This document shows, in pieces, positions 5,765 through 46,491 of a stretch of DNA of 46,493 nucleotides. Made by a program: the position numbers and the translations under genes. The stretch covers positions 1 through 46,493 of the IMG/VR virus record IMGVR_UViG_3300020214_002430; one strand, written 5' to 3'. Each line of letters starts with the position of its first letter. Within the stretch, counting starts at the first letter, position 1. The notes beneath the pieces were generated by a model. It saw only the letters and a program-made list of their open reading frames with translations. It was not told the origin of the DNA and made no database searches. The stretch is from a virus.

Positions 5765-5774
5765 TTATGATCGC

Positions 5775-5791: not shown

Positions 5792-5818
5792 ATTTGTTTA
5801 CAAATAACGGAGAAAAAA

Positions 5819-6019: not shown

Positions 6020-6040
6020 ATCTTATATTTTTATAAGAAG

Positions 6041-6068
6041 CAAAGGCAGGAGATATCTCCTGCCTTTG
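6041..6068. terminator. Perfect palindrome at convergent junction, likely bidirectional hairpin terminator
   Basis: Two 12-base arms (CAAAGGCAGGAG and its exact complement) flank ATAT, giving a perfect 28-base palindrome. It lies between the rightward lipoprotein gene (stop 6019) and the leftward gene ending at 6081, where a two-way terminator is expected. Neither side has a long T run, so termination may be factor-assisted. A weak AT-only hairpin (CTTATA-TTTT-TATAAG) lies just before it at 6022-6037. Confidence 0.7.
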
Positions 6069-6080
6069 TCACTTTAACAT

Positions 6081-6347: not shown

Positions 6348-6356
6348 AATTTCACC

Positions 6357-30896: not shown

Positions 30897-31198
30897 GATA
30901 ATATCCCATCTTCTTTTTCTTTTTCGAAAGGTACAATTACCTTGTTCGCTATTAACAACATAGCTTCTCTAGCATTCTTTACGTCTTTTACCATCGATAT
31001 AACGACTGGATCATCAAATAAAACTGGAGATTTTAGATGCCTAGACACGTCTTGGTAAGACTTATCTATGATGTCTAAAGATTCTTCAATCTGCGATCCT
31101 ATCTCATCTATTTGTTCTACTAACTTTAGCGATTTTTTTATCATTGTTAGTAAAGAAAATAAAGTGATAAGATTTGTTATTAGTAAAAGATATATCAT
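30893..31198 (-). CDS. Small single-pass membrane protein
   Basis: This 101-residue protein has a hydrophobic N-terminal segment at 2-20 (IYLLLITNLITLFSLL), followed by a coiled-coil-like stretch (QIDEIGSQIEESLDII). A conserved-looking C-terminal block reads FDDPVVISMVKDVKNAREAM, then LLIANK. Similar blocks occur in small proteins encoded near gp55 in other large myoviruses, as far as I recall. It overlaps the neighbouring genes by four bases on each side, so it is translationally coupled to both gp55 and a glycosyltransferase. The function is unknown. Confidence 0.65.
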   Translation of the reverse strand: MIYLLLITNLITLFSLLTMIKKSLKLVEQIDEIGSQIEESLDIIDKSYQDVSRHLKSPVLFDDPVVISMVKDVKNAREAMLLIANKVIVPFEKEKEDGILS

Positions 31199-32355
31199 GT
31201 TAAATATTTTGAAAGATTTTCATCATAAATTTTAGAAATTTCTGAATGACTATAACGTTCAATTATTTTTTTTGCTCCTTGTTCTGCCCACTCTTTAGGA
31301 GCATTTGGAGCACTTTTGAACTTTAATATTTTTTTCTTAAAATCTTTTTCTACTGCTTCTGCCCATTTAGCATTTTTTACAAAGATCTTTTCATCAACTC
31401 TGCTTGAATGTATTTGCTTTAGCTCATAGTCTATGTTAATAAACTTGACATGATTCATAAAATCCATGTGGCCAGACCACCCCGTTGCGATAACAGGTAA
31501 TCCAGCAGCGGCGGCTTCAAGAAGAGGTAATCCGTAACCTTCTCCTCTCGTTAAAGAAACTAAAGCTTTTATTTTCGGGTGTTTGTATATTGCAGACACA
31601 TCTTCATCATTCATGTCTCCATGTAAAAGATAGAATTTTGGAAACTTAGTTTTTCTTACTTCTTTTAATAATCCTTCTAGATTTCTTAGAACTATGTTTC
31701 TATCTATTAGAGTGTTCCTACCGGCGTTAGTTTTTATAACAATTCCTACATCTTCATCCTTAGAAAATGTTTCACAAATCCATTTAATGGTAAATAGAAG
31801 ATTTTTTCTATCATTAAATGGGTTGTTTCCTGTCATCTGGCCGAACAATAAAAAGTTAAATGTTGTATCGACGGTTGATAAATCTATTTCTTTTTTTGAA
31901 GTTAAAATTTCTTCTGGAAATGATTCAGGAATTACATACGACGGCGTTTGAAGTTCAGCAGTATTTTTAAGGCTGGAAAGAGCATGTAACGATGGCACAA
32001 CAACACAAGACATTTTATTACAACTTGAAACCCAAGCTGGGTTTGCTACGTCTGTTTCAACGGCTGCTGTAATTCCGATATTAATCTTACAAAGATTTGG
32101 ATCCCATTCGTTTGGTAATTGTAGTTGAATAGAAACGTCAGCTTTATATTCTGGGCTGACAGTTCTTTCCATTATTTTTGAAACAAGACCTCCATCTTTG
32201 TCTCTATCCAATATCCAAGGAGTATCTCCCCATGGAGTTAACAAAAACTTAACATCGATATCACTTCTAGACAATAACCATTTTGCGACTTGTCGACTAT
32301 GTACTCCGTACCCTGATTGAGTTAAAGCAGGACCTCTAAAAATTACTTTTTTCAT
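31195..32355 (-). CDS. Glycosyltransferase, GT-B fold (GT4-like)
   Basis: This is a 386-residue protein. The N-terminal acceptor domain opens with FRGPALTQSGYGVHSRQ, where the Gly-rich loop follows the first strand. The C-terminal nucleotide-sugar domain has the E-x7-E motif of family GT4: ALVSLTRGEGYGLPLLEAAA, with GLPVIATGWSGH after it. Length and fold are typical of retaining GT4 enzymes. The donor and acceptor cannot be read. It follows a second GT4-like gene by one base and is the last gene of the glycan island. Confidence 0.85.
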   Translation of the reverse strand: MKKVIFRGPALTQSGYGVHSRQVAKWLLSRSDIDVKFLLTPWGDTPWILDRDKDGGLVSKIMERTVSPEYKADVSIQLQLPNEWDPNLCKINIGITAAVETDVANPAWVSSCNKMSCVVVPSLHALSSLKNTAELQTPSYVIPESFPEEILTSKKEIDLSTVDTTFNFLLFGQMTGNNPFNDRKNLLFTIKWICETFSKDEDVGIVIKTNAGRNTLIDRNIVLRNLEGLLKEVRKTKFPKFYLLHGDMNDEDVSAIYKHPKIKALVSLTRGEGYGLPLLEAAAAGLPVIATGWSGHMDFMNHVKFINIDYELKQIHSSRVDEKIFVKNAKWAEAVEKDFKKKILKFKSAPNAPKEWAEQGAKKIIERYSHSEISKIYDENLSKYLT

Positions 32356-32356
32356 T

Positions 32357-33601
32357 TCAAATTCCAGTAAGACTCCAGCTTTTGTAATTTTGCTTCCAGT
32401 TTTCGCACAAGTCAGTTAAAGTTTTATCCCATTGTAAGATTACATTTTCAATGTCATAATCTTTTTGTGCATGTTCAAAAGCTCTTTGACCAACTTGTTT
32501 TCTCTTTTCTGGTCCCCACTCATACATTTTCATAAATGCGTTTGTTAACGTATCATGAGTAATATAGTCTTCATAAATGTAAGGAACTAATTGATTTCCT
32601 ACTAGGGAACTAGCATCTGGATTTAAAGCTATTCCATACTGTTCTCCTGTTTCATGATCTTCTACTTGTCTGGTCAACCCTCCTGTTTTGATTGCAATGA
32701 TTGGTTTTGCACACATCATTCCTTCAAGAGTTGACAATCCGAATCCTTCATTGCAACTACGGTTAATTACTGTATCGCAAGCATTGTAGAGTTTGTTCAT
32801 ATCTTTAAACTCTATTCTATCTTTTGAAAAGATAACATGATCTTTAATTCCTAACATGTCAACAACATGCAACAAGTTAGGACCTTCAGGGTCTAATGGT
32901 TCTGTATGCATTACAAGCGTTGCTTTTGTATGTCCATGCTTTTCTTTTAATTGATCAATAAACTTTTTCCAAGAGACGAGTATGTCAGATGGCATTTTTC
33001 TTCTAGCATTTCTTGAAACAAAAAGAGCAGTAAAATGATCTAGTTTTTCTTTTCCTAATAATGAAGTCTTATATTTCTTTTGTTCTTCTTCTGAAAGCGG
33101 ATGATAAATTTCTTTTGGAATTGCATGAGGGATGTAATTAGTTTTTTCAGGAAATCTAGATTTTACCATATCATACGTCGGCCAATTGATACAGTTTATT
33201 AAATCAGTAGATTCATACAAAACCTTGTTAAAGTCTGGCCATGGGTAGTTGTCCCAAAGATGATTGTATGCTATTGGGCATACTTGATGAATTTCATCTT
33301 CCATTTCCCAGACCCAAATGAAAAACCTTGGGTCTGTAAAAAGTAATAAAACGTCAGGCTTTTCTGTAGCTAAAACCTGACGTAACATATTTCTGTCGCC
33401 GAATCCGTTGGTAGGTTTGATTATAAAATCATCATTAACAACAACCGTTCTATAATCTTCATGTTTAACAGCGCCACCAAAACACTTAAACTTCCATTTT
33501 CCAGTAGCGATCAATCCGTGAATTAACCATCTAGCTTGTGTACCTACCCCACTTGAACTTAGTGGATGGTCTGAAAGCATTAATACTGTTTTTTTCTGCA
33601 T
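32357..33601 (-). CDS. Glycosyltransferase, GT-B fold (GT4-like)
   Basis: This is a 414-residue protein. The first strand and Gly loop read LMLSDHPLSSSGVGTQARWL. Other visible parts are YNHLWDNYPWPD, a FVSRNARRKMPSDIL segment opening the second domain, and the E-x7-E motif NRSCNEGFGLSTLEGMMCAKP followed by IAIKTGG. These support a retaining GT4 enzyme. The gene pairs with the 31195-32355 transferase and is separated from the nuclease gene by 38 bases. Confidence 0.87.
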   Translation of the reverse strand: MQKKTVLMLSDHPLSSSGVGTQARWLIHGLIATGKWKFKCFGGAVKHEDYRTVVVNDDFIIKPTNGFGDRNMLRQVLATEKPDVLLLFTDPRFFIWVWEMEDEIHQVCPIAYNHLWDNYPWPDFNKVLYESTDLINCINWPTYDMVKSRFPEKTNYIPHAIPKEIYHPLSEEEQKKYKTSLLGKEKLDHFTALFVSRNARRKMPSDILVSWKKFIDQLKEKHGHTKATLVMHTEPLDPEGPNLLHVVDMLGIKDHVIFSKDRIEFKDMNKLYNACDTVINRSCNEGFGLSTLEGMMCAKPIIAIKTGGLTRQVEDHETGEQYGIALNPDASSLVGNQLVPYIYEDYITHDTLTNAFMKMYEWGPEKRKQVGQRAFEHAQKDYDIENVILQWDKTLTDLCENWKQNYKSWSLTGI

Positions 33602-33639
33602 GTCGTTATATTACTAACTTTTGAAAAATTTGTAATATT

Positions 33640-34458
33640 TTAAGTGCAGTGTTCACTATTTTTAAATTCACACCACGTACATGCATCACGGTTTTTTAGA
33701 GCAATACCTCTTTTTACAGACGTTATCATATTGCTAACGACTTTAAGAGATCGCTTGATAGGAACTTCCCCAAGAGAAACTGAAAATAACTCGCAGTGAT
33801 CACCAGGTTTCGCTGCCTTCTTGAGAAGCACAAAACCGCAGCGGACGTCTTTCATGGGAACTGTCGGGTTTTTTTGACACCAATAGTTCTTATAAAGAGC
33901 CAACTGAGCTTTTACCATGTCATCGCTGCGCTTCTCTCTAAACCACCCGCGCGGCGTTGTTTTCCAGTCGAGGATCCAATAGATCGTCTCTCCTCGTTTA
34001 CCTTTTGCCTTGATGACACCGTCGATGAAACCCTTAAAAGCATGAGGATGATTTTCAACCGCTTCATAAAGTTGATGCTCGGCGGCGACGACGTCCCATT
34101 CGGGGAAAGTATCATCTAAAAACTTTGGAACTTCTGAGAGAATTAGAGCAGCTTCTGACTTAGCTTTTGCAAGAGATGCTGGAGAAAAGTCTGGATTTCC
34201 TTCGTACTTCGCCCAGGCTTTCTCCATATGCTCGAAAGCAATCTCAGGTTTCATCTCGCGAGTCAGTAGGTAGTGCTCACATGAAGCGTGAACAGCCGTA
34301 CCAAAGTCTAATACGGGAGATGGTTTCGAAAGATCGACTTTTTTGATATGAACTAAATTGTGACGATACGAACACTCTTTCCAGAGCTTAACTTCTGAAA
34401 ATGAAACGTGTTGTTTTCCCGTCGGTAGTACCTCAAATGAGGGTATTACTTCTTGCAT
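33640..34458 (-). CDS. PD-(D/E)XK nuclease, Cas4/RecB-AddB-like, with likely 4Fe-4S cluster
   Basis: This is a 272-residue protein. Nuclease motifs in order: DFGTAVHASCEHYL (His motif), GFIDGVI (motif II Asp), WILDWKTT (motif III D-x-K), and QLALYKNYW (the Q-x3-Y motif). Four Cys suitable for an Fe-S cluster are Cys29 near the start (WKECSYR) and Cys260, Cys263 and Cys271 at the end. This arrangement is that of Cas4 and AddB exonucleases, which resect DNA ends. It is an unexpected member of a glycan island. Base composition is less AT-rich than the glycosyltransferases to its right. A role in recombination-dependent replication is likely. Confidence 0.87.
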   Translation of the reverse strand: MQEVIPSFEVLPTGKQHVSFSEVKLWKECSYRHNLVHIKKVDLSKPSPVLDFGTAVHASCEHYLLTREMKPEIAFEHMEKAWAKYEGNPDFSPASLAKAKSEAALILSEVPKFLDDTFPEWDVVAAEHQLYEAVENHPHAFKGFIDGVIKAKGKRGETIYWILDWKTTPRGWFREKRSDDMVKAQLALYKNYWCQKNPTVPMKDVRCGFVLLKKAAKPGDHCELFSVSLGEVPIKRSLKVVSNMITSVKRGIALKNRDACTWCEFKNSEHCT

Positions 34459-34490
34459 TATGTGATAGTAACACCCTCTTAATTGTTAGT

Positions 34491-35456
34491 TCAATCTTTT
34501 GGTTTCTTTGAGATTGCTCGTCCAACTAACTTTTCCCAATCTCGTTGCGGACGAACTTCAACATTTTTGTTCCATGCAGCACTCATAACTTTTGGATCTA
34601 CTCCTAAGGTTTTAGCAATGCTAATCAATGCATTAATATCCTTACAAAAACAGCTTCCGCCGAAGCCAAAAGCCGGCTCTCCAGTGTCGTCTGCTGGCAT
34701 TGGTCCAGGGACTTTCCAATGTGAGCTACCCAACCGCTTGTCGAGTGTGGCATATTCGATTACCTTATCATAGTCGATGTTTGCTCCTGAAGAGTCCAAA
34801 GCTTGACAAATTTGATAAAACTCGTTAGCAAGAGCGACCTTCACTGCTAGATGAATGTTCGTTACATACTTTACCATTTCAGCAGTGGTGCTTGATGTTT
34901 TAATGATTGGAACGTTTGGAAACGCTGCCTCAAAAACTTGTTTGACCTTATTGATCCATGGACGAGGACCGCCAAGGATGATTCTATTTTGGTTTCGCAT
35001 GTCATCAACAGCATTTGCTTCTGTTAAGAACTCAGGATTAAAAATAACTTTCAATCCTGTTTCAGCGAACTTTTTATTCCACATCTCGACAGACCCTGGT
35101 GGGACCGTTGATTTAACTACGGCAATTCTTTCTCCAGAAACTTCTGATAATTCTTTCAGAGTTCCTTCTACGATGCTGAGATCTGCAGATCCATCTTCAA
35201 ACATAGGCGTAGGAAGGCATACAAAATAAATTTTAGAAAAACCTGGTGTTCCACCTTCCTCATTATCGTGAATTAATTCTGCAATGGACCCAGGATAACC
35301 AGCAACGGAATCTCCATGACTTGGTAGCGATCCTCTTACATACTTTCTTGCCTTATCATACGCGTATACATCAAAACCACGTTCTGAAAAAACTGTCGTT
35401 AATGACCCGCCAACGAATCCTTGACCAATTACAGCAATTGACTTATTTTTTTTCAT
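34491..35456 (-). CDS. Nucleotide-sugar 6-dehydrogenase (UDP-Glc/GDP-Man dehydrogenase family), short form
   Basis: This 321-residue enzyme should oxidise a nucleotide sugar at C6 to a uronic acid using NAD. The NAD-binding Rossmann motif GQGFVGG is at 11-17. Further family blocks are KSTVPPG at 115-121, NPEFLTEANAV at 140-150, EMVKYVTN at 193-200 and the catalytic GFGGSCF with Cys269. The family usually has 390-450 residues with a third, UDP-binding domain; this protein ends soon after the central helix (about 305-321). The short form is therefore odd: it may still act as a dimer or need a partner. It lies between the nuclease gene and a glycosyltransferase. Confidence 0.85.
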   Translation of the reverse strand: MKKNKSIAVIGQGFVGGSLTTVFSERGFDVYAYDKARKYVRGSLPSHGDSVAGYPGSIAELIHDNEEGGTPGFSKIYFVCLPTPMFEDGSADLSIVEGTLKELSEVSGERIAVVKSTVPPGSVEMWNKKFAETGLKVIFNPEFLTEANAVDDMRNQNRIILGGPRPWINKVKQVFEAAFPNVPIIKTSSTTAEMVKYVTNIHLAVKVALANEFYQICQALDSSGANIDYDKVIEYATLDKRLGSSHWKVPGPMPADDTGEPAFGFGGSCFCKDINALISIAKTLGVDPKVMSAAWNKNVEVRPQRDWEKLVGRAISKKPKD

Positions 35457-35487
35457 AGATTTTATATAATCTAAAAAAAATTAAAGT

Positions 35488-36390
35488 TCATTTAATTGCA
35501 TTAAGAACAGATTTCCACCCTTCATCATTTTTTATGAATTCTACTGAAGAATTAATTTTTGATTGAGTTTCTTCGACATCATTTAATGTTTTTTGAATTA
35601 GTTGAATTGATTCTTCAAAATTTTTATAAGTTAAAATTGAAGTAATGTTGTTAGCGTAATTTTCGTGTTCTTTTTCATAATCTCTAATGCTTATGCATCC
35701 TCTAGATGCAGCTTCAATATCTTTTACCCATAATGCATTTGCTTGAAGCTTTTTTGAATCTACTATCCATTCTACTTGTTCATTATGTATGAAAATTTTT
35801 ATTTTAGACAAATTTTCTAAAAATCCTTCGTAAGAAGATTGTTTTAGAATTGTTACATTAATGTTTTTTGATTTTAAAAAATCAAAAAATTTTTTTCTAT
35901 AAGGATGAATTTGACCACAAAATCCTATATCAATTTCTCTATTTTTCCATAATGGAGTAGAAGAACAATATTCTGGTAACACCCACATTTTTACGAATGT
36001 AGACTTTATTCCTTTATCATTTATAAAGTCACTCCACCATTTTGATGTATTTAAAAAAGATTTAACATTCAATTCATCATAAATTTTTTTATATGATCCT
36101 TTATATGGAGAATCATCTTTAAAAGATTCCCAAGGATCTTGTTCATATATGAATATTTCTTTATCATTGAGATACTTTTTTATTATATGAATATTTTTAT
36201 CTAAAGTTCTTAATTTCAAGCAAGATAAAATTTTATCGCATGAAGGAATTTTATTCCTTAAGTTAACGTCTGACATCGTACTAAATGTCATATTTGTTTC
36301 ATTTTGTAAAGTCTTAAATAACTGATGTTGAAAACAATTGTTTTTTACGTATTGATAATCGTCAATAATGACGTGAAGATTTAATTTCAT
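35488..36390 (-). CDS. Glycosyltransferase-like protein, GT-B C-terminal type (CgeB-like)
   Basis: This is a 300-residue protein. The C-terminal half shows a group-1 transferase pattern: IDIGFCGQIHPYRKKFFDFLK, then LSKIKIFIHNEQVEW, and DIEAASRGCISIRDYEKEHE, where the Glu of DIEA stands for the usual E in the donor site. The N-terminal half is shorter than in a classical GT-B enzyme. It overlaps the next gene by 29 bases. The gene is very AT-rich. Confidence 0.68.
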   Translation of the reverse strand: MKLNLHVIIDDYQYVKNNCFQHQLFKTLQNETNMTFSTMSDVNLRNKIPSCDKILSCLKLRTLDKNIHIIKKYLNDKEIFIYEQDPWESFKDDSPYKGSYKKIYDELNVKSFLNTSKWWSDFINDKGIKSTFVKMWVLPEYCSSTPLWKNREIDIGFCGQIHPYRKKFFDFLKSKNINVTILKQSSYEGFLENLSKIKIFIHNEQVEWIVDSKKLQANALWVKDIEAASRGCISIRDYEKEHENYANNITSILTYKNFEESIQLIQKTLNDVEETQSKINSSVEFIKNDEGWKSVLNAIK

Positions 36391-37090
36391 TTAGTATAAA
36401 TTCCTTTGAATAATTTTTTATACAAAAATTAAAAGCATTTTGAAAATCATCATCATAATAATCAACATCATTATATTTTGATGAAAGATTAAACCCTAAT
36501 AAACACAACCCTCTTATTTTATCAAAATCATTTTTTTCCCAAGCTGAATATACATTATTAAAGATATCAGGTTGATTTTTTTTACCTCTGTGAAATCCAT
36601 AATGAAATGATTGTTTTTCAGATGGAAACCAACAATGCTTTCCTGCAGGAATTAATTCTTTAGGAAGTTGGTCTCCTCGAATTACAACATTATGACCTGA
36701 GTCAACTCTATCAGGATACAATTTATTCACATTTGTAGCTACTAAAACAGTGTTTTTTAAACATGTAAGACCGTATATCATGCTATCAGTCATGTAGTCA
36801 TGAAGCCACGCTTGAACTCCTGTTAACTTATCATTGTTTTTAAAAAGTTCGACAAAAGTTTTTATAACTAAATTATGAGACAATACTGTGTCTGCGTCGA
36901 CCTTTAAAAACAAATCATAGTCTTTTTTTACTCTGTTCCATTCTAAAAAAAGTTTTTCATGTGCTTCTTTTTCTGGTAGGTTTGAAACAATGTAATGTGT
37001 TATTTGAACATCTACTTGCGTTGAGATTGATTCTTTACATTTCTCAAATTCATTTTCTCCACACTCCATTGTTCCTACAAAAACTTTCAT
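36362..37090 (-). CDS. Putative GT-A glycosyltransferase
   Basis: This is a 242-residue protein. It begins MKVFVGTMECGENEFEKC and has the metal-binding KVDADTV at about 80-86, a D-x-D motif after a long strand-helix start, as in GT-A enzymes. HNVVIRGDQLP and WFPSEKQSFHYGFHRG follow, with the late His residues possibly in the active site. The C-terminal third is acidic (DVDYYDDDFQN). The exact GT family is not recognised. It is coupled to the preceding transferase by a 29-base overlap. Confidence 0.68.
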   Translation of the reverse strand: MKVFVGTMECGENEFEKCKESISTQVDVQITHYIVSNLPEKEAHEKLFLEWNRVKKDYDLFLKVDADTVLSHNLVIKTFVELFKNNDKLTGVQAWLHDYMTDSMIYGLTCLKNTVLVATNVNKLYPDRVDSGHNVVIRGDQLPKELIPAGKHCWFPSEKQSFHYGFHRGKKNQPDIFNNVYSAWEKNDFDKIRGLCLLGFNLSSKYNDVDYYDDDFQNAFNFCIKNYSKEFILNEIKSSRHY

Positions 37091-37111
37091 TTATTTCTCC
37101 AAGCAAAATTT

Positions 37112-37609
37112 TTATAAAATTTTATACATACAAATTTGATCAAAAAATTTTTCATCTCTATATAAAGAAGAAATTAACTTACCTTCTTCTATAAAACCAA
37201 GATTCTTATATACTTTTTGACCTATTAGGTTGTATTCTGCAGTTGTTAAACTTACTCTATGAAGTCCGATTTCTTTACAATGATCTAACATTAACGACCA
37301 CATGAACTTTGCATATCCTTTACCTCTAAAATTCTTATGAATATCTGCTCCTAATACACAATTTCTATTAGTAAGATCTATACTATAAAACTTAGTAAAT
37401 CCTACTCTTTCAGAGTTTATTTCAAATATTTTTCTTTTTTGAGAATTATCTTTTGATATTTTTTCCCACCAAGATAAATGTTGATTTAAAGTTATAGGAT
37501 TTGGATTAGTTAAATTTTTTAAAACTTCTGGATCATTGTGCAGTTCAACTAACCATTCATGATCTTCATGAACAACTTCTCTTAATAGCATCTTTGAATT
37601 TTTTTTCAT
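37112..37609 (-). CDS. GNAT N-acetyltransferase, candidate PseH-like sugar acetylase
   Basis: This 165-residue single-domain RimJ/PseH-type GNAT has LLREVVHEDHEWLVELHND at its start. The acetyl-CoA loop is FRGKGYAKFMW at about 95-105. HRVSLTTAEYNLIGQKVYKNLGF follows, matching motif B of the family. As a nucleotide-sugar acetyltransferase it would acetylate the 4-amino group made by the aminotransferase encoded two genes upstream (38412-39557). RimJ-type protein acetylation is an alternative; the neighbours favour the sugar role. Confidence 0.78.
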   Translation of the reverse strand: MKKNSKMLLREVVHEDHEWLVELHNDPEVLKNLTNPNPITLNQHLSWWEKISKDNSQKRKIFEINSERVGFTKFYSIDLTNRNCVLGADIHKNFRGKGYAKFMWSLMLDHCKEIGLHRVSLTTAEYNLIGQKVYKNLGFIEEGKLISSLYRDEKFFDQICMYKIL

Positions 37610-38415
37610 TTTAAAATATCGTTTTGAAAATACTGATCAAGAACATCATAAAATGATTTTGATAACTCATGTTTTCTAAACTCTTTAGATAAAGACCCTC
37701 TTTGATGAGCTAAAAATGGAACTCCATCTAATTGATATTCTTCATGATAATTGAACCCTGTTTTTACAATTTTTGCATTATCAGTAGGTTTTTCTTGACT
37801 TAACCCTTTATAAGGAATATTATTAGATTTTAAATACTGAGGTATTTGCCATCCTGAATCTTTTAAAAGTTTATATCCAATAGGCAATTGGTATGTTTTA
37901 GAAAGTTCTTCATTTTCAATTAATAAATGATTACCTTTTTCAGGATTCATTTTTAGTTTTGAAAAGTCATATTTTTTAGATGTTGCAAACCACGTAGCGT
38001 TTGGAATATTTTTATAAGTTTGAACTTCTGAAAGGCCAGAACTATATCCTCCTATTTTTTCATATGTAGTTCCAAAAACTCCAACATCTTTTAAAATATT
38101 TTCAGTTATGATGTCCCACCCATTCATTAACATAACGGTGTCTGAGTCAGCTATAATATCGATCGATTCAAGTTCTGTGTTTTTAAAGTTAGATAATGCA
38201 ACCTTAATTCCATTGCAATGTCCTAACGTTCCACTTCCTGGTTCAACTTTAATAGCTGTTGAAAAATTTGAACTTTTTATATAACTTTCATTATCTAAAC
38301 AATAACAATAAAAACCTAATTTATGTTTTGTAGCAGTTTTTAAGTAATTTTGTTTCATGTATTCAAAATATTGAAACGTAGAATTACTCAGCGTTACGTG
38401 TATGTTGATTGTCAT
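37606..38415 (-). CDS. Putative GT-A glycosyltransferase
   Basis: This is a 269-residue protein. A start of MTINIHVTLSNS is followed by a FEYMKQNYLKTATK helix, the strand LGFYCYCLD, and IDIIADSDTVML with a D-x-D motif near residue 90. HCNGIKVAL precedes it. The C-terminal part has KTGFNYHEEYQLDGVPFLAHQRGS. The order fits an inverting GT-A fold. It overlaps both neighbours by four bases and lies between the aminotransferase and acetyltransferase genes, so it may use the sugar they make. Confidence 0.65.
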   Translation of the reverse strand: MTINIHVTLSNSTFQYFEYMKQNYLKTATKHKLGFYCYCLDNESYIKSSNFSTAIKVEPGSGTLGHCNGIKVALSNFKNTELESIDIIADSDTVMLMNGWDIITENILKDVGVFGTTYEKIGGYSSGLSEVQTYKNIPNATWFATSKKYDFSKLKMNPEKGNHLLIENEELSKTYQLPIGYKLLKDSGWQIPQYLKSNNIPYKGLSQEKPTDNAKIVKTGFNYHEEYQLDGVPFLAHQRGSLSKEFRKHELSKSFYDVLDQYFQNDILK

Positions 38416-39557
38416 TTTTTATTTTCTAAAATTTTTAAAGTTAAATTTGCAATATGTTTTATATCGTCTTCATTCAACCACCATCCACAAGGCAAAGAAA
38501 ATTGCATAGATGAAAATTCTCTGACTCCGGGTAAGTCAACTTTAAACTTTTTGAATGCTGTATAATTATCGTTTGGAACATGAACAACGCCAGCATGAAT
38601 TCCTTCTTTATTTAGTTTTTCTAAAAGTTCATCTCTAGAATTTTTTTTACTTTTTAATTTTACTGTATACACCCACGAAGAAGATTCAGAATGTTTTGGC
38701 TTTTTTGCTGGAATTAACAATTTATTATTTTTAAACAGCCCATCATATAAAGCGGCATTTTGTTTATGCTTGTTTATTATATTATTGATATAAGGAAATT
38801 GTGACAACCCTATTGCTGCAGTTAAATTATTCATATTGAATTTATAACCAGCTTCTAAGATGTCAACATCCCATTGTTGACCTTTCCAATTTCCTTTAGA
38901 GTCTTTTGCTAAATCTCTATCTAAACCAAACCATTTTAGAGATTTTGATTTTTTATAATCTTTTTCACTTGAGCATATCAAAGCTCCACCATCTCCAGTA
39001 GTAACATGTTTAATTGCTTGAAAACTATAGCAAGTGAAGTCTGCCCAAGAATGAATTTGCGAATTATTATATTTTGAACCAAACGCATGCGCGGCGTCTA
39101 AAATAAGCTTTACATTTTTTTCGCTACAAATTTTTTTTAATTTTGAAAGCTCAGGAGGAGTTCCTGCCCATGCGACTGCCATTACTGCTTTTGTTTTTTC
39201 AGTGATCTTTTTTTCTACGTCTTTTGCATCGATCATTCCACTGTTTGGATCAACGTCAGCCCAAACAATATTTGCGCCCATTGTATAAATTGGAGTATTA
39301 GTTGCAACACATGTCATAGGAGTTGTAATGACATTATCCCCTGGTTCAACACCACATAGTTTTAGAGCTAACGTTAGAGCAGAAGTACAACTATTTACTA
39401 ATATTAGTTTTTCTGTTTCAAAAAATTCTTGCATTTTTTGAGTTAGCTCAGTAACTTGAATTCCTTCGTTAATGAATCCTGATTCTAATACATCTTTAAT
39501 TTTTTCTAAAGATTCTTTTACTGGTATATGAACTTTAAAAAGAGGATAACTTTTCAT
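38412..39557 (-). CDS. PLP-dependent sugar aminotransferase (DegT/DnrJ/EryC1 family; PseC/PglE-like)
   Basis: This 381-residue enzyme is typical of the family. Cofactor-site motifs: NSCTSALTLAL at 55-65, the DAAHAFGS block at 154-161 and FQAIKHVTTGDGG at 179-191, with the PLP-binding Lys183. It should add an amino group at C4 (or C3) of a keto nucleotide sugar, such as the 4-keto product of the dehydratase encoded just upstream at 39561. The TTGDGG rather than TTGEGG loop is a common variation. The N-terminus begins with MKSYPLFKVH, as many family members start with a short PLxxP-type segment. Confidence 0.87.
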   Translation of the reverse strand: MKSYPLFKVHIPVKESLEKIKDVLESGFINEGIQVTELTQKMQEFFETEKLILVNSCTSALTLALKLCGVEPGDNVITTPMTCVATNTPIYTMGANIVWADVDPNSGMIDAKDVEKKITEKTKAVMAVAWAGTPPELSKLKKICSEKNVKLILDAAHAFGSKYNNSQIHSWADFTCYSFQAIKHVTTGDGGALICSSEKDYKKSKSLKWFGLDRDLAKDSKGNWKGQQWDVDILEAGYKFNMNNLTAAIGLSQFPYINNIINKHKQNAALYDGLFKNNKLLIPAKKPKHSESSSWVYTVKLKSKKNSRDELLEKLNKEGIHAGVVHVPNDNYTAFKKFKVDLPGVREFSSMQFSLPCGWWLNEDDIKHIANLTLKILENKK

Positions 39558-39560
39558 TTT

Positions 39561-40583
39561 TCACTTTCTATTTGTTGCAATTTCTTCTATCTTTAAACCC
39601 TGAAATTTTTCTAGTGGCATATCAATTATGCCAAGATCTTTTAGCTTTTCAAGCAACTGTTGCTTTGACATAACATCATCTGCGCTAGTATATGTAAAAG
39701 ATTTTTCAGTTCCTACTTGATAAGCAGGTCCTATTACATAGTGGGTTTTAATGTCTTTTGTTCTTACGGATTCAGAATCATTGATTAAGTCTTCATGTTT
39801 TTTCTCACCAGGTCTAAGTCCGATTACCTTGATAGGCTTATTATAAAGACTAGAGAATATTTCGGCAAGATCTCCTATCATCATTGATGGAATTTTTGGT
39901 ATCCATGTCTCTCCACTTTTACCATTATTTAACGCTTCTACAATTAAATCTACGCTGTCATCTAGCGTCATGACAAATCTAGTCATGTCTGGATCTGTTA
40001 CTGTTAAACAGTCTGAATTTTCTGCTTGATATTTAAAAAGAGGTATGATGCTGCCTCTGGATTCTAGAACATTTCCATAACGAGTGCACAAAAATTTAAC
40101 CCCTGTTGAATCATTTTTTGATTGACTAGTTACTAACCTTTCTGAAATTGCTTTGCACATTCCGTAAACGTTGACGGGAGAACATGCTTTATCCGTGCTA
40201 ACAAATAAAACTTTTTCAAGTTTCCAATTATCATTAAAATTTTGTGAAAGCTCTTTTACGGATTTTATAACATTTTGAGTACCTAAAAGGTTTGTTTGAA
40301 CACTTTCAAATGGGCTTAATTCGCAAGTATCGACTTGTTTAAGTGCAGCAGCAATAATTACAACTTGAGGTTTATAGTGGTAAATAACTTCTTTTACTCT
40401 ATTATAATCTCTAATATCGCCTACAAAAAATTCAATATTTTCAGAATTACATAATTCATTTTTTATTGTCCAATGTTTTGCTTCATCTCTAGAATAAACT
40501 GCAATGTTATCACCATTAGACAAAAACCTAGAAATTAATTTCTTTCCTAATGACCCAGTTCCGCCAAATATCAAATACTTCAT
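39561..40583 (-). CDS. NDP-sugar 4,6-dehydratase, PseB/FlaA1/CapE-like SDR
   Basis: This 340-residue short-chain dehydrogenase converts a UDP-GlcNAc-type sugar to a 4-keto-6-deoxy sugar. The NAD-binding loop GGTGSLGKK is at 7-15. A catalytic set TDK (130-132) plus Y140-x3-K144 in VYGMCK matches FlaA1/PseB. TRYGNVLESRGSI and DMTRFVMT are the substrate-binding blocks of this subgroup, and GLRPGEKKHEDLIN is near the C-terminus. The PseB type inverts C5, whereas other members do not; sequence alone here cannot decide. It is the first enzyme of the sugar module and lies four bases from the aminotransferase. Confidence 0.88.
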   Translation of the reverse strand: MKYLIFGGTGSLGKKLISRFLSNGDNIAVYSRDEAKHWTIKNELCNSENIEFFVGDIRDYNRVKEVIYHYKPQVVIIAAALKQVDTCELSPFESVQTNLLGTQNVIKSVKELSQNFNDNWKLEKVLFVSTDKACSPVNVYGMCKAISERLVTSQSKNDSTGVKFLCTRYGNVLESRGSIIPLFKYQAENSDCLTVTDPDMTRFVMTLDDSVDLIVEALNNGKSGETWIPKIPSMMIGDLAEIFSSLYNKPIKVIGLRPGEKKHEDLINDSESVRTKDIKTHYVIGPAYQVGTEKSFTYTSADDVMSKQQLLEKLKDLGIIDMPLEKFQGLKIEEIATNRK

Positions 40584-40614
40584 TTTCTTATTTTATTTTT
40601 TTAAAAATGAATGT

Positions 40615-41439
40615 TTAAAGCTTAATGACATCTAAATCTTTTAATATTTTGTCATTTCTTGTTGGTCTATAATCAATAGACAAATTGTGGTTTCTGCTTC
40701 CATTTATGACAATATGAGAATTTTCATTTCCTAATTTTGAATGCCAAATTCCTCGGTCAATAATTGCAGATTTTTTATATTTTTCGTAATAAAGTTTTTG
40801 ATAGTCTAACTCTGAAAATTCTCTTAATTTAGAAAGTTCTAAAAATACTTCTTTTATTGTTTTCATTCTAGTTAATGAAGGAAGTTTAGACAAAAAATTA
40901 CAAGAGTATATTTCGTTAATTTTATCAACTAATTCAAATTCTACATTTTTATTTTCTATAAAATTATGTTGTACAACACATGCATACTTTTTTGAATTTT
41001 TTGTTTGTTTTCTTTTATCGTATAAGCTTCTTTCTGAAACTAAAAATTCCTCTGTTCTTATGGACCCGATGTCTTCATAATCATCTAAAAATTTTTCGCA
41101 TAATCGAAGTTTTTCAAAAGCTTTATCAAAATGAATAATATCTGATTCAATGATATAAAGATATTTGTAATCTTTATTCATCATTTTTTCATAGTTATTT
41201 ATACACCAAAAAATTGCACTCCAATACCCTGCGTTAGTCTTACTTTGAAATACGTTTTTAAAAGAAGACGTCAAAAGTTCTATGCTTCCTGGGTATGTTG
41301 ATGCGTTATCAAAAACTAAAAAATTTTCTTGTGTGTCTGTATCAACTAGTTTTATCAAATTATCTACAACTTGTTCTAAAACCTTGAATCTAGTAATTTC
41401 TTTTGTGCATGTCACTAAAAGTATTAATGTGTCTTTCAT
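40615..41439 (-). CDS. Putative GT-A glycosyltransferase
   Basis: The start is set at the ATG at 41439, which overlaps the previous stop by four bases; a longer form would overlap more. The 274-residue protein begins MKDTLILLVTCTKE, then FLVFDNASTYPGS, then a D-x-D-like block YLYIIESDIIHF near residues 95-106. IIDRGIWHSKLGNENSHIV occurs late. GT-A enzymes of this shape (GT2 style) transfer hexoses. The middle is rich in Lys, and the gene is very AT-rich. Confidence 0.68.
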   Translation of the reverse strand: MKDTLILLVTCTKEITRFKVLEQVVDNLIKLVDTDTQENFLVFDNASTYPGSIELLTSSFKNVFQSKTNAGYWSAIFWCINNYEKMMNKDYKYLYIIESDIIHFDKAFEKLRLCEKFLDDYEDIGSIRTEEFLVSERSLYDKRKQTKNSKKYACVVQHNFIENKNVEFELVDKINEIYSCNFLSKLPSLTRMKTIKEVFLELSKLREFSELDYQKLYYEKYKKSAIIDRGIWHSKLGNENSHIVINGSRNHNLSIDYRPTRNDKILKDLDVIKL

Positions 41440-42566
41440 GTTATTGTTCCAACAAACGTTTCCCAATTTTTCCAATATTCATCATTTAAAGATTCTTTTT
41501 GAAGATTTATCATCCCAATTTTAAGCTTATTGACATAATCTTCATCAAAAGATAATTTTTGTATTTCTTTTGCTGCTTCTTCTGGCGTTTCAACTATAAT
41601 TGAGTTTATTTTGTCAATTAAATAATTCTTTGAGTTTGACATGAAAACGTACTTTTTAGTTGTAATAATTGGAACTTCGCTATTGAAACAATAATAAAAA
41701 ACTCCACCACCCCAGTCTGTTTGCTTAAAGTGTACAGCTGCTTTTAACTTTGAAGTTAGCTTATAAGATTGTCTGGGGTTTATTGTTTGAAAGTGACCTG
41801 TTACTCCGCTATTTCCAGAAAATCTAATATCAGCTCCTGCAGATCTAACATTACCTCCAAAATTTTTTATTTCTTGAATGTTTTTTTCTCTTAAATTCAA
41901 GTTCATTTTGACGAAAAATTTATAATCATCTGGTTGTCTTACCTCAAAATTATGATTAAATGAAGCAAAATCTAAAGTTTCAATATCATTAGATTCATGA
42001 TTAATGTCTAATAACTTTTTTTCAAAGGGCACACAAAATACATTAACGTTGTTGACATCAATATGTTTGTTTTCATAATTCGCAGGAATAAACTTTGCTA
42101 CATTTTTTGGTCGATGACTTCCTGGATCTGAATTCCATGCATTCATAGTTGATGAAACCCATTTTGCGTATGGAAAATATTCATTAGCTACTTTGAAGTA
42201 GTGTAATAAACTTTCTTCTCCTCCTCTTAAAGTATGAAAAACATCGATTCCAGGATTTTTTTCATTTAAATCTATTATTTCGCAAGATATGTCTTCATCA
42301 TATAAACAAGATGATTTAAAAGTTTTTAGAAAAAAGTCTTCTCCAAAAAACGCATTATTTTCTTGAAACGGATAAAGATCAAGATTTCTTTTGTTTTTAT
42401 CAATTGAAGACTTGCATAATAACATAGGCCATGTAGCTATTTTTTCCCATTTAAGTCCTAACGTACCATGTTTCGGTACAAATACTTTGTGTCCTAGTTT
42501 TGAGTAATGATAGATCATAGAAGTTAATCCGCTTCTATCATCAGTTGGAAAAATAAAGATATTCAT
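41436..42566 (-). CDS. Glycosyltransferase-like protein (GT-B-like)
   Basis: This is a 376-residue protein. It begins MNIFIFPTDDRSGLTSMIYH, with a Gly loop after the first strand, then HKVFVPKHGTLG. Late segments ADIRFSGNSGVTGHFQTINP, AAVHFKQTDWGGGVFYYCF, NSEVPIITTKKYVF and VETPEEAAKEI look like the donor domain of a GT-B enzyme. No exact family is recognised, and the E-x7-E motif is not clear. The position among other transferases supports the call. Confidence 0.6.
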   Translation of the reverse strand: MNIFIFPTDDRSGLTSMIYHYSKLGHKVFVPKHGTLGLKWEKIATWPMLLCKSSIDKNKRNLDLYPFQENNAFFGEDFFLKTFKSSCLYDEDISCEIIDLNEKNPGIDVFHTLRGGEESLLHYFKVANEYFPYAKWVSSTMNAWNSDPGSHRPKNVAKFIPANYENKHIDVNNVNVFCVPFEKKLLDINHESNDIETLDFASFNHNFEVRQPDDYKFFVKMNLNLREKNIQEIKNFGGNVRSAGADIRFSGNSGVTGHFQTINPRQSYKLTSKLKAAVHFKQTDWGGGVFYYCFNSEVPIITTKKYVFMSNSKNYLIDKINSIIVETPEEAAKEIQKLSFDEDYVNKLKIGMINLQKESLNDEYWKNWETFVGTIT

Positions 42567-42582
42567 AAACTTCTCTATACTA

Positions 42583-43494
42583 CTAAAAGTCTAATTCAGG
42601 CCCTTCTAATAAAACCTTGCTTTGAGGATATTTTTTTTGATCTCCATTTTCAGTTTGATAATTCCAGCCTATCGGTCGACATACATCTACAAAGCTTAAA
42701 GGAATTAAAGATTCTTGTTTTTCTGTATATTCTGTTACGGAGATTTTTTCATAATATTCTCCGCTGGAAGATTTAGCGTCTATATAATGTCCATATCTTT
42801 TATTGCCTCTAATAAAAGCATATCCTCCTCGAGGATCGTTCCATATAGGAGCGAATAAAGGAACCCAACTACAATAATTTAATTGCAAACCAGGAAGTTT
42901 AGATTTTAAATTAGAATCGTACCAATCTTCTGATCTTCCCCAAAATTCTTGAGTTTGTGGCCACTCAACAGGATATTTTCCAAACTTTTCAAAAATTTCT
43001 TTTTTAAAAAAACCCATTGTTGGAAAATGATTATCTAATGGCAAATAGTACTTGTAATTTTTGTTTTTTATTACCAAGTTTTTATTAAATTTATTTTGAA
43101 CAGTCGATTTTCTAACTGCGTTAACTTCTAAAGAAAACATTTCTTTAGAAGAACAAAAATCTTCTATAACTTTTTCTAAAGCTTCTTTATTTCCAATAAA
43201 CTGCAAATCATCTTGAAGAAACAAGATTACATCATGTTTTGCATTTTCTATGATAATGTTTTTTGCAATGTATTCATCATTAACCCAATTTCTTTCTTTT
43301 GGACTTCTAGAAAATAGTTGATGAATAATTCCATTCTTTTTCTGCTCTTCAAGATATTTTTTGAGGCCATATTCTACGCTACAATTGTCGACAATGATAA
43401 CTTGATTATCATTAGAAATTTCTTTTATGCTGTTAAAAAGAGATTTTGTGTATTTTAAACGATTAAACGTTGTTATTCCAATTGTTATATTCAC
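42583..43494 (-). CDS. Glycosyltransferase family 2-like protein
   Basis: This is a 303-residue protein. A classical GT2 start is seen: ITIGITTFNRLKYTKSLFNS, then QVIIVDNCS, then VILFLQDDLQF with the metal-binding acidic residues near 90-100. WPQTQEFWGRSEDWYDSNLK may be the catalytic-base region (QTQEFWGRSEDW in place of ED). A long C-terminal tail carries W, Y and G residues. GT2 enzymes are inverting and use NDP sugars. It lies nine bases after the next gene upstream. Confidence 0.8.
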   Translation of the reverse strand: MNITIGITTFNRLKYTKSLFNSIKEISNDNQVIIVDNCSVEYGLKKYLEEQKKNGIIHQLFSRSPKERNWVNDEYIAKNIIIENAKHDVILFLQDDLQFIGNKEALEKVIEDFCSSKEMFSLEVNAVRKSTVQNKFNKNLVIKNKNYKYYLPLDNHFPTMGFFKKEIFEKFGKYPVEWPQTQEFWGRSEDWYDSNLKSKLPGLQLNYCSWVPLFAPIWNDPRGGYAFIRGNKRYGHYIDAKSSSGEYYEKISVTEYTEKQESLIPLSFVDVCRPIGWNYQTENGDQKKYPQSKVLLEGPELDF

Positions 43495-43503
43495 TTTTTA
43501 ACC

Positions 43504-44391
43504 TCAGCTTAAAATAATTTTCCAAAATGATTCCATCGATTCTTTCCATTTTGGAGGCATTTTAGAATTCTTTAAAAAATTTCTTTTTAATAATATCTGT
43601 TCAATTTCAAAGAAATTTTTATAAACATGCTCTTTATCCACAAATTCGACTGCTCCTCCGCCTTCAGAATGAACATATGTTGGAAGTCCAACTGCAATTG
43701 ATTCTAAAACGTGATTAGGTCCAGGATCATACCTCGAGGCGCTGACATAAACGTCATATTTACATAACTCATCAGCTAAAGCTTTTCCAGCTAGCGGAGG
43801 TATTGTTTTTGAATTAGAAAAAGTTCCTCTATCTCTTCCTATATATGTGAACGATATTTTGTCGTTTTTTGTGCTAAGATAATCTAAAAATTCGTATACA
43901 TCAAATCCTTTTAGATAATTGTTTGACCAATGATGCGTTACAACTTTTAAAACGTTATCATTTTTTTCAACGAATTTTGAATCAAAAAATTCATCATCAA
44001 CGCCGTTATACAAAACATGTTGATTTTTGCAAATCCATCCTTTATTGTTAAAATAATTTTTCATCCAGTTACTTACAAAAATAGTTTTTGTATTAATCGT
44101 ACTGCATTGTAACAGTAATTGATCCATATGCTCTGTGTTTTTTCTTGCATCACATTCATTGATCCGTTGAACTACAGGAATATTCTTTTTTGATATAAAT
44201 TTTGCAACGTCATTTATATCAAAAGATTTATCTCGACGAGGATCTACTAAAAAAATTAAATTAACATCATCAGTAAGTCTATCTGTCAATTCTACGCCAT
44301 TTGGAACAGAGGAATAAACTGCTTTTACAAAGTTATTTCCTCCTCCATAAGGTCCTAAAACAGGAGAACGATTGATCGCAATTTTAATCAT
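43504..44391 (-). CDS. Glycosyltransferase, GT4-like
   Basis: This is a 295-residue protein. The start is INRSPVLGPYGGGNNFVKA with a Gly loop. In the first domain VVQRINECDARKN and IFVSNWMKNYF are seen, and then VLYNGVDDEFFD opens the second. The donor site is SASRYDPGPNHVLESIAVGLP, with the terminal Glu of the usual E-x7-E motif (first position is Asp). YVHSEGGGAVEF follows. The length is shorter than a typical GT4 enzyme (about 370), so the acceptor domain is reduced. Confidence 0.82.
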   Translation of the reverse strand: MIKIAINRSPVLGPYGGGNNFVKAVYSSVPNGVELTDRLTDDVNLIFLVDPRRDKSFDINDVAKFISKKNIPVVQRINECDARKNTEHMDQLLLQCSTINTKTIFVSNWMKNYFNNKGWICKNQHVLYNGVDDEFFDSKFVEKNDNVLKVVTHHWSNNYLKGFDVYEFLDYLSTKNDKISFTYIGRDRGTFSNSKTIPPLAGKALADELCKYDVYVSASRYDPGPNHVLESIAVGLPTYVHSEGGGAVEFVDKEHVYKNFFEIEQILLKRNFLKNSKMPPKWKESMESFWKIILS

Positions 44392-44417
44392 TTTAGATAA
44401 TGATGATAGTATAAAAA

Positions 44418-45320
44418 TTAAATAGATTGTATTAATAATCTATAAGGATTATATCCTTGAGGAAGTTTCCATTCTTGAACATTAGGAACGTTAGGTACCG
44501 CTGATGTTACGTCATCTGATATAGATGATTCAGGTAAAACCTGAGAAGCAATCCCTACATTTCTTGAGACTACTGGAACTTCTAGCAGTCCGCATTCAAT
44601 TAATGACTGAGGTCCACCTTCACATCTAGCAGTAACAGGATATAGATCCAACGTTTGGTATAATTCGTTAATAGTCTTTTGGTCTGGTTTCTCAAAATAG
44701 TTAAATGGAATGTTAGAATTCGTCAAACGATTAATGATGTATTGTCTTCTCCACCCAGCCAAAACTATATGTAAATTTTTCTTTTCTTTTGACCACATTT
44801 CAATAGCATCAACTAATAAATCTGGACCTTTTTCTAATTTAGGAGAAATTAGATCTTTTCCTTCTGTATCTCTTTGAAAAGATCCAATTAAAAAACCGTC
44901 TTCAGGTAAACTATACTTTTTTCTTAGTTTTTGTTTTTCTTCTGTTTTATTCCAGATGTTCTGGTTCGCCCAGTATTTTATTAAATGAATTGGTTTTGTC
45001 GTGAAACTTTGAATAAAATTTAAAGTTTGCTCATTATAGACGTGATAAGCTGTAGTTATTTTGTCTCTTAGCAAAAAGTTATGAATATCGACATCTTTAA
45101 ATTTTTCAGGAACTATATGGTGCACAGTTGTTAAAACTTTTTTGTTTTTTAACAATCCTTTAAAAAATAATTGCTCCCAACACCAGTCAGCTAGCAACCA
45201 AACAACATCAGCTTCTGCAGGATTTGACACACTGATATCTGAATTATCTTCGTTCCACTCTTTTACAAAACGATCTACTATCCAATCTTCTGACGGAGGA
45301 AGAACATACACTTTATTCAT
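44418..45320 (-). CDS. Glycosyltransferase, GT4-like
   Basis: This is a 300-residue protein. Blocks: VVWLLADWCW, TTVHHIVPEKF, then the domain junction FLIGSFQRDTEGKD, a LHIVLAGWRRQYI strand-helix, and the donor-site DLYPVTARCEGGPQSLIECGL with VPVVSRNVGIA. E-x7-E is present as E...E in RCEGGPQSLIE. The compact size is as in the neighbouring 43504 gene. It overlaps the next gene upstream (45317) by four bases. Confidence 0.82.
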   Translation of the reverse strand: MNKVYVLPPSEDWIVDRFVKEWNEDNSDISVSNPAEADVVWLLADWCWEQLFFKGLLKNKKVLTTVHHIVPEKFKDVDIHNFLLRDKITTAYHVYNEQTLNFIQSFTTKPIHLIKYWANQNIWNKTEEKQKLRKKYSLPEDGFLIGSFQRDTEGKDLISPKLEKGPDLLVDAIEMWSKEKKNLHIVLAGWRRQYIINRLTNSNIPFNYFEKPDQKTINELYQTLDLYPVTARCEGGPQSLIECGLLEVPVVSRNVGIASQVLPESSISDDVTSAVPNVPNVQEWKLPQGYNPYRLLIQSI

Positions 45321-46252
45321 TGTTGTAAGACGCTTTCTAAAAATAAAAGATAATCATTCAATGTTCTTTTCATCGAAACGTCAAAGCAAGATGTTAGATC
45401 AGATTTATTAGGTAAACACTTTTTTATTTGAGTTACATCAATGTTTGGAGGATCGTCATAGTTTGCTAATTCAAAATTGTATTCTTTATCTTCTTTTAAA
45501 ACTACTCCGTATCCTTGAACTAGTTCTTTTGTTCCTCCATATTCAGAACAAATAACTGGAGTTCCTTGAGACAATGCTTCAACCACTGCGTTTGGACAAT
45601 GATCTAACCACGCAAGATGCAACATCCAATTAGATGCAGAAAATATTTCTAAACAAACTTCATGTGGTTGAGAACCTGCATAAAAAACATGAGGATCTGC
45701 AACCTTAGTTGGGTTAGATCCTAAAACTATTAGAGCAGCAGATGAATAAAAGCTTCTTAAATGTTTGTATAGCTCTATGTTTTTCATCAAACGTTTTTGA
45801 GGATGCCAGTTTGCAGAACATACGAATAACATTTCGTATTGTTGTCTGATTTGCTCCAATGCCGATATTTGAAATTTTTTAATTTCTGGTGCATTAATAC
45901 CGTTTCTAATTATTGATCCATTTTTAGGGTTGCCCCACCACTTTGTTGTCATTCCTTTATCAAATTCAGATTGCCAGATGATACCGTCAGCTGAATGATA
46001 CAACTTTTTGATTGATGAATTTTTTGTTTCAAATTCTTCAGGTGAAAACCAAATTCCGTCTAGTCTCTGGATGACTTTTTTTGCTAAAGGCCTTCCGCTA
46101 GGTTCGATGAATACTATCGAAGCATCGGAATTTCTTCCATCATATAATTCAACTTCGTGACCTGATTCTATCAGGCCCATCGCCAATCTCTTTCCAAAAG
46201 AATTTGGACCAGAGTTTGAGCTCATGTTAACGTTATCAAGATGTATCTTCAT
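45317..46252 (-). CDS. Glycosyltransferase, GT4-like
   Basis: This is a 311-residue protein. The opening SSNSGPNSFGKRLAMGLIESG holds the first-domain Gly loop, and VIQRLDGIWFSPEEF and GIIWQSEFDKGMTTKWWG follow. IRNGINAPEIKKF opens the second domain. MLHLAWLDHCPNAVVEALSQGTPVI and EYGGTKELVQGYG form the donor site. The fold is GT-B. It is one of three compact transferases in a row at 43504-46252. It overlaps the last partial gene by four bases. Confidence 0.83.
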   Translation of the reverse strand: MKIHLDNVNMSSNSGPNSFGKRLAMGLIESGHEVELYDGRNSDASIVFIEPSGRPLAKKVIQRLDGIWFSPEEFETKNSSIKKLYHSADGIIWQSEFDKGMTTKWWGNPKNGSIIRNGINAPEIKKFQISALEQIRQQYEMLFVCSANWHPQKRLMKNIELYKHLRSFYSSAALIVLGSNPTKVADPHVFYAGSQPHEVCLEIFSASNWMLHLAWLDHCPNAVVEALSQGTPVICSEYGGTKELVQGYGVVLKEDKEYNFELANYDDPPNIDVTQIKKCLPNKSDLTSCFDVSMKRTLNDYLLFLESVLQQ

Positions 46253-46491
46253 GATCTCTTTTTTACTTCAGCGATAAAAGGAACTGCAAAAGGTGTCTTG
46301 TTAAACATCATTGCCATCAATGCAATTTCTTTAGTTTCTATGTTAGAAAGGCTAGCTCTTTGAGTGAAAATATTTGGATCTAATTCTTGGTTTCCATTTA
46401 TCGTTACTGCATCATAATACATTTGAGCTATGAAATTTACTGATTCATTTGTCAAAGGAACTGAAGACTCTTTGACAATTTCAGACAGAGA
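46249..46491 (-). CDS. C-terminal part of an unknown protein (partial, runs off right edge)
   Basis: The frame is open up to the right end of the window, so the start lies beyond it; the TTG at 46455 is probably not the start. The visible 80 residues contain ALMAMMFNKTPF and end VKKRS. The part TNESVNFIAQMYYDAVTING is helical. No family is recognised. It overlaps the downstream transferase by four bases, so it belongs to the same operon. Confidence 0.55.
   Translation of the reverse strand, partial: SLSEIVKESSVPLTNESVNFIAQMYYDAVTINGNQELDPNIFTQRASLSNIETKEIALMAMMFNKTPFAVPFIAEVKKRS

Follow-up and report, generated by a model that had tools for sequence, protein, structure and literature searches.

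Seventeen genes, all on the minus strand and without interruption, occupy positions 31195-46491 of a linear viral record of 46.5 kb (IMG/VR record IMGVR_UViG_3300020214_002430; the whole stretch of 46,493 nucleotides is called the window here) and encode putative glycosyltransferases (GTs) together with enzymes of nucleotide-sugar synthesis. Neighbouring genes overlap or nearly touch, with spacings of -40 to +38 nt. When compared with the closest relative of the window, a contig of 204,651 bp (G001, IMG/VR 3300035703_000010), 15 island genes had ratios of nonsynonymous to synonymous substitution rates (dN/dS) of 0.03-0.14; this set excludes a putative GT gene absent from G001 (GTA2) and the gene fragment at the window end. 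Because these 15 genes are under purifying selection, they represent working genes and not chance open reading frames (ORFs). The island is furthermore conserved in more than 20 viral contigs. A first-pass annotation had described a leftward, phage-encoded glycan island of about 15 kb that makes a multi-sugar chain, and gene arrangement, profile matches, conservation and selection all support that description; the locus is almost certainly a real, functional glycan locus. Three features add to that annotation: one gene within the island encodes an exonuclease, the nucleotide-sugar dehydrogenase lacks its C-terminal domain, and the window ends inside the locus.

Eleven of the genes had been annotated as GTs, of which five score above Pfam gathering cut-offs, three have profile or fold support below cut-off and three are without family or fold support; eight of the eleven are thus supported in some way, so that a failure of most to fall into GT families, which would have refuted the annotation, is not seen. 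Those above cut-off are the group-1 GTs GT4a (31195-32355, 386 aa; PF00534, 37.6 bits), GT4b (32357-33601, 414 aa; PF00534, 51.7 bits), GT4d (44418-45320, 300 aa; PF00534, 36.9 bits) and GT4e (45317-46252, 311 aa; PF00534, 34.8 bits), and a GT2-family GT (42583-43494, 303 aa; PF00535, 46 bits). GT4a, GT4b and GT4e are conserved core genes: GT4a is found in every relative whose record covers it and has a counterpart with 33% identity in Flavobacterium phage immuto, while homologues of GT4b occur in phages of Flavobacterium (immuto), Microcystis (Mel-JY01) and Rhodothermus (RM378).

Among the three with support below cut-off, GT4c (43504-44391, 295 aa) is GT4-like according to hhalign alignment to the GT4d/e profile (95%, E 2e-8) and a PHROG glycosyltransferase match (8e-5). 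GTx1 (35488-36390, 300 aa) is a probable GT-B protein of the Glyco_trans_1_2-like kind, as PF13524 is matched weakly by the window copy (0.04) and by five of eight homologues (best 1.7e-4). GTA1 (36362-37090, 242 aa) carries a DAD motif, and its AlphaFold model (predicted local distance difference test score, pLDDT, 89.1) has a GT-A fold for which Foldseek returned SunS, WrtF, SpsA and the PBCV-1 capsid GT as PDB matches. Within the sensitivity of the search, 24 viral loci but only three of 84,980 prokaryote genomes were found to carry relatives of GTA1, and on these sequence counts the family is nearly phage-restricted; a tblastn search with GTA1 against GenBank phages gave no match.

The remaining three candidates were assigned to a GT family by none of the searches tried. 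GTA2 (37606-38415, 269 aa) has a DXD-like DSDT motif and is absent from G001 and G003; in contig L008 (12163-13473), GTA2 and the acetyltransferase described below are fused into one protein of 436 aa. GTA3 (40615-41475, 286 aa) is a putative GT-A protein with conserved VFDNAS and ESD motifs, likewise DXD-like, and no profile or PDB match. GTx2 (41436-42566, 376 aa), a putative transferase by its position, has no profile match and a low-confidence AlphaFold model (pLDDT 41), and is present only in the closest relatives (80-69% identity in G001-G003). Alignments of GTx1, GTA1, GTA3, GTx2 and GT4c against PDB profiles gave chance matches or none, and hhalign of GTA3, GTA1, GTx2 and GTx1 against GT sets was uninformative.

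Pfam and NCBIfam also bear out the sugar enzymes of the first-pass annotation, i.e., a 4,6-dehydratase, a DegT aminotransferase, a GNAT acetyltransferase and a nucleotide-sugar dehydrogenase. The dehydratase (39561-40583, 340 aa; PF02719, 276 bits) is of the UDP-N-acetylglucosamine (UDP-GlcNAc) type and PseB/FnlA-like, with PseB as its best NCBIfam model (278 bits, cut-off 408); its nearest solved structures are 4tqg (best PDB match, 2.5e-85), which we take to be a Megavirus enzyme, and the Cap8E group. The DegT/DnrJ/EryC1 sugar 4-aminotransferase (38412-39557, 381 aa; PF01041, 292 bits) belongs to the PseC/ArnB branch, as it groups with sugar aminotransferases including PseC and ArnB, has PseC as its best NCBIfam model (256 bits, cut-off 423) and matches PDB 2fn6 at 7e-45. 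The GNAT N-acetyltransferase (37112-37609, 165 aa; PF13302, 63 bits) is PseH-like, PseH being its top NCBIfam model (61 bits, cut-off 93). Judged from these matches, the module probably yields an amino sugar of the PseB/C/H type. A NeuB-family synthase (PF03102), which would perform the PseI step, was found in only one of 16 relatives (G007) and not in G001-G006 or G008, nor was it seen in the window, itself a fragment. Since G001-G006 and G008 lack the synthase, the product is likely a UDP-diacetamido-trideoxyhexose that is used directly. Pseudaminic acid as the default end product was rejected on the absence of the synthase from 15 of the 16 relatives.

The dehydrogenase (UGD*, 34491-35456, 321 aa) comprises the NAD-binding and central domains (PF03721 and PF00984) and retains the catalytic residues T117, E142, K196 and C269. 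The C-terminal UDP-binding domain (PF03720) is absent from UGD* both in the window and in the relatives: the protein ends where this domain would be expected to start, and its PDB matches end near residue 313 of chains of 393-495 aa. The phage dehydrogenases of SP-15, Kuja and S-SSM7 measure 383-436 aa. Near UGD*, several contigs (L013, at 14335-15672, L103-L108 and L112) encode a second dehydrogenase-like protein that is ~25% identical to it and 441-457 aa long where measured.

Between GT4b and UGD* lies a gene for a PD-(D/E)XK (RecB-like) exonuclease (33640-34458, 272 aa; PF12705, 61 bits; PHROG exonuclease), which by these matches is not a glycan gene. At the other end, the window cuts the locus within a gene for a conserved protein of 121 aa that is present in most relatives; positions 46249-46491 encode its C-terminal part, and the full-length homologue occupies 43435-43800 of the 205-kb relative G001. 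There the locus runs for ~3.7 kb beyond the point corresponding to the window end; the 121-aa gene is complete in this part, and the further genes encode a GT2, a nucleotidyltransferase of the RmlA type and a protein of 646 aa that contains a GT2 domain. Consensus promoters (85 vs. 78 in shuffled sequences) and terminators (9 vs. 6.8) showed little excess, and operon limits therefore cannot be defined from them.

Gene content of the island is polymorphic among related phages, with conserved ends and an exchanged middle (L006, G004 and G007). GT4a, GT4b, the exonuclease and UGD* are kept at one end across relatives, as are GT4e, GT2b, GT646 and usually the 121-aa gene at the other, while the genes between them vary. 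A recently exchanged cassette of 8.0 kb that extends from UGD* to GTx2 (34446-42489) is 99.2-100% identical in nucleotide sequence to contig L006 in each full 500-base step, whereas outside the cassette one side has 67-91% identity and no homology is found past 42489. The cassette boundary coincides with the 5' end of the exonuclease gene, the last mismatch to L006 being at 34445. In L006 itself, the homologue of GTx2 (1258-2554) lacks its 5' end and adjoins another gene fragment, and the homologue of GTA2 (5575-6383) is split by a frame break. The 187-kb relative G004 keeps UGD* (90% identity), GT4e (80%) and the 121-aa gene (86%) around a middle of ~15 different genes, including an epimerase, another aminotransferase, a GNAT, a GT2 and a Glyco_trans_1_2 protein. 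The distant G007 carries genes for a nonulosonate synthase, a cytidylyltransferase, a heptose kinase and adenylyltransferase, and a carbamoyltransferase. Bacterial O-antigen and capsule loci likewise vary in the middle between conserved ends, and the middle of the phage island is very probably exchanged in modules.

A bacterial counterpart is found in two of the three prokaryote genomes with GTA1, both of them metagenome-assembled: Alphaproteobacteria CG1_02_46_17 (locus L089) and Rokubacteria AR40 (L088) encode the dehydratase (53-56% identity), the aminotransferase (55%) and GTA1 (37-38%) in the order of the phage. These genes are followed by GNAT, GTA3, GTx1 and GT4-like genes in L089 and by GTA3 and a GT4-like gene in L088. 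The alphaproteobacterial locus contains an ABC exporter inside the run and is adjoined by an O-antigen ligase, while the rokubacterial locus adjoins ordinary peptide-transporter genes; at L090, GTA1 occurs alone in an exopolysaccharide-like locus with Wzz. Searches for PF02397, PF00953, PF04932, PF01943 and PF00664 were negative in the window and eight relatives (nine records) and positive in control genomes, and no membrane segments were predicted among the island proteins. Without a lipid-linked step or membrane segments, the genes of the phage look like the part of a surface-polysaccharide locus that acts in the cytosol. A Wzx/Wzy- or ABC-type polysaccharide made by the phage was rejected as a candidate, since these searches of the nine records found no lipid-phosphate GT, flippase, exporter or ligase.

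The genomic setting connects the island with genes for the virus particle. A co-directional minus-strand block without gaps of more than 69 nt spans positions 12103-46491 and joins the GTs with late sigma, baseplate and tail genes. The late (gp55-like) sigma factor gene (30141-30896, minus strand; PHROG 234, late sigma transcription factor, 1.3e-5) is chained by 4-nt overlaps to a 101-aa ORF and then to GT4a. The window encodes gp6-like and gp25-like baseplate wedge proteins, and the terminase of G001, with which synteny spans most of the window from a gene resembling DNA ligase (4380-5714) onwards, is ~41% identical to the terminases of Flavobacterium phage immuto and Microcystis phage Mel-JY01. 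Given the baseplate and sigma genes and the likeness of the G001 terminase, the window is, on sequence grounds, a piece of a large myophage of the T4 superfamily.

Overall, the island could best be explained as an O-antigen-like, membrane-free glycan locus of a large T4-related myophage that glycosylates a cytosolic acceptor made by the phage, an explanation in which we place about as much trust as doubt. The dehydratase, aminotransferase and acetyltransferase would convert UDP-GlcNAc to the UDP-diacetamido-trideoxyhexose by PseB/C/H-like chemistry, and the GTs would attach this and further sugars sequentially, in the cytoplasm, to the acceptor, most likely a tail-fibre protein or another virion protein. 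A swap of the cassette would alter the outer sugars and thereby how the particle presents itself to hosts, competitors or predators. Two observations favour a virion target: the island shares a block with sigma and baseplate genes, and in contig L110 (6911-8735) a tail-fibre-like gene is followed after 19 bp by a lone GTA1 relative on the same strand (41% identity over 230 aa) and then by minus-strand genes, the pair being on the strand opposite to its flanking genes. The fibre-like protein of L110 and those of the window have a module in common, and the window fibre-like proteins are rich in Ser and Thr (22-27%). The pair in L110 shifts weight towards a cytosolic acceptor such as a tail-fibre protein. 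That a virion protein is the main acceptor falls somewhat short of an even chance. Several observations weigh against it or against the wider explanation. The pair in L110 is a single case, the common fibre module spans only 40-66 aa, and further genes resembling those of sugar epimerases lie on the same contig. A family is lacking for three of the eleven GTs, and all three enzymes of the sugar module score under the NCBIfam equivalog cut-offs. The mosaic with L006 rests on metagenome assemblies and could be chimeric on the non-homologous side. Finally, host flippases and ligases could complete a surface glycan, so that their absence from the phage leaves room for the host envelope as target, and some GTs may act on DNA because relatives encode a cytidylate-hydroxymethylase-like enzyme.

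Modification of the host envelope is the strongest of the competing explanations, though we consider it unlikely. Phage GTs would add or replace sugars on lipid-linked intermediates or on the core of lipopolysaccharide (LPS) by way of host flippase and ligase and so block adsorption of competing phages. The cytosolic gene set does occur in a bacterial chromosome next to an ABC exporter and an O-antigen ligase, GTA1 alone occurs in a locus with Wzz, and the closest clusters described, those of cyanophages, have been interpreted in this way (PMC7824862). However, the nine phage records encode no membrane or lipid-phosphate step, the lone GTA1 of L110 adjoins a fibre gene, and a block shared with late sigma and baseplate genes would be expressed late for a block of superinfection. 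The absence of a lipid-phosphate GT, flippase and ligase from these records also shifts weight away from a lipid-linked polymer made by the phage.

Glycosylation of phage DNA, in which hydroxymethylated cytosine would bear an oligosaccharide built by the GTs and thus block restriction and CRISPR nucleases, appears improbable. Relatives G001-G004, G007 and G008 encode an enzyme of the thymidylate-synthase family with Asp in place of the Asn of thymidylate synthase, the copy in G001 has a cytidine monophosphate (CMP) 5-hydroxymethylase as its best PDB match, and phage SP-15 is thought to employ a UDP-glucose dehydrogenase in DNA modification (PMC5977210). Yet the hydroxymethylase-like gene lies ~115 kb from the island, within a conserved cluster apart from it that has sugar epimerases of its own, and was not seen in the window itself, a fragment; the middle of the island, on the other hand, is exchanged wholesale. 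Phage immuto moreover has a comparable island together with a thymidylate synthase that scores highly, and glycans on DNA would not be expected to need so many GTs. Besides the CMP/dCMP-hydroxymethylase-like protein, whose specificity position is occupied by Asp, the separate cluster (L071 5726-12539, equivalent to G001 155726-162539) encodes two NAD-dependent sugar epimerases and an unassigned protein of 347 aa, and it is more conserved than the island; in G001 it also holds genes that resemble those for thymidine kinase and a deaminase. By sequence, it is a candidate DNA-modification locus and a better one than the island, and its existence shifts weight away from DNA as the target of the island. 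Least probable is that the genes serve a small glycosylated metabolite or several unrelated transfers instead of one chain. The mixed enzymes of G004, G007 and L114, together with carbamoyltransferase-like proteins, recall the secondary-metabolite sets described in cyanophages, and the three transferases without a family would fit as well, but many GTs whose order is conserved across many phages fit a chain better.

Further observations concern genes outside the island. A second sigma factor is encoded on the plus strand of the window (2214-3056; PHROG 351, 9e-52), and an endonuclease gene at its left end (859-1800; PHROG 8420, 2e-54) resembles that of a UV-damage endonuclease. In G001, a gene resembling DNA polymerase III alpha (150312-155206) is apparently split by an intein-like sequence with the junctions ...YGCLHGSTVITT... 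and ...GFLVHNC...; an ORF (152992-153954) lies between them, and the homologue in G007 measures 1199 aa.

Large sugar clusters in phages are a known kind. In mycobacteriophages, virion proteins reportedly carry glycans that depend on phage GTs. The 'LPS/capsular polysaccharide' clusters of the cyanophages P-SSM2 and S-SSM6a/7 (Iyer et al. 2021, PMC7824862) likewise combine several GT families with NAD-dependent epimerase/dehydratases and nucleotide-sugar enzymes in large T4-like tailed phages, and their gene content is polymorphic between related phages, as in the relatives of the window. In contrast, the locus described here belongs to a different phage lineage and consists of different gene families, has an exchangeable middle between conserved ends within a late sigma/baseplate block, and contains the PseB/C/H-like module and a dehydrogenase without its C-terminal domain. 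Moraphages, which are large aquatic phages, similarly have multiple GTs, with four GT orthogroups in their core genome, although a sugar module and cassette exchange like those of the window are not reported in the parts of that paper available to us (Perez-Hernandez et al. 2025, PMC12619734). Phage immuto (NC_055915) has a PD-(D/E)XK nuclease followed by GT4b, GT4a, an aminotransferase, an epimerase and a GT2; its GT4a, GT4b and aminotransferase are homologous to those of the window (31-35% identity), but its sugar genes differ, and sequence searches found no PseB-like dehydratase, GTA1, GTA3 or UGD* in it. Compared with the window, the bacterial locus L089 adds the ABC exporter and O-antigen ligase, and relative to Wzx/Wzy or ABC-type O-antigen and capsule loci in general the phage locus resembles the cytosolic half only, without the lipid-linked and export steps. 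Rare bacterial-type sugars are also virus-encoded in Megavirinae, where the clusters are proposed to glycosylate particle fibrils, although these are viruses of eukaryotes (PMC10117803). What the present lineage adds to this kind is a locus of modular build with a counterpart in bacteria, a dehydrogenase trimmed of one domain and a GT-A family that is almost confined to phages.

Host-surface modification has hitherto been the main explanation offered for large sugar clusters of phages. The isolated relative immuto makes the glycosylation target of these phages directly testable, and the GTA1 family and the domain-trimmed UGD* provide material for biochemistry. Tentatively, and with more doubt than confidence, the island could represent a 'glycotype' locus of the whole lineage of large aquatic myophages, in which fixed GTs build a stem on a tail-fibre protein, and the outer sugars are set by exchangeable cassettes that are akin to the surface-polysaccharide loci of bacteria and devoid of flippase and ligase. 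If so, these phages would switch the glycan coat of their own virions in a serotype-like manner.

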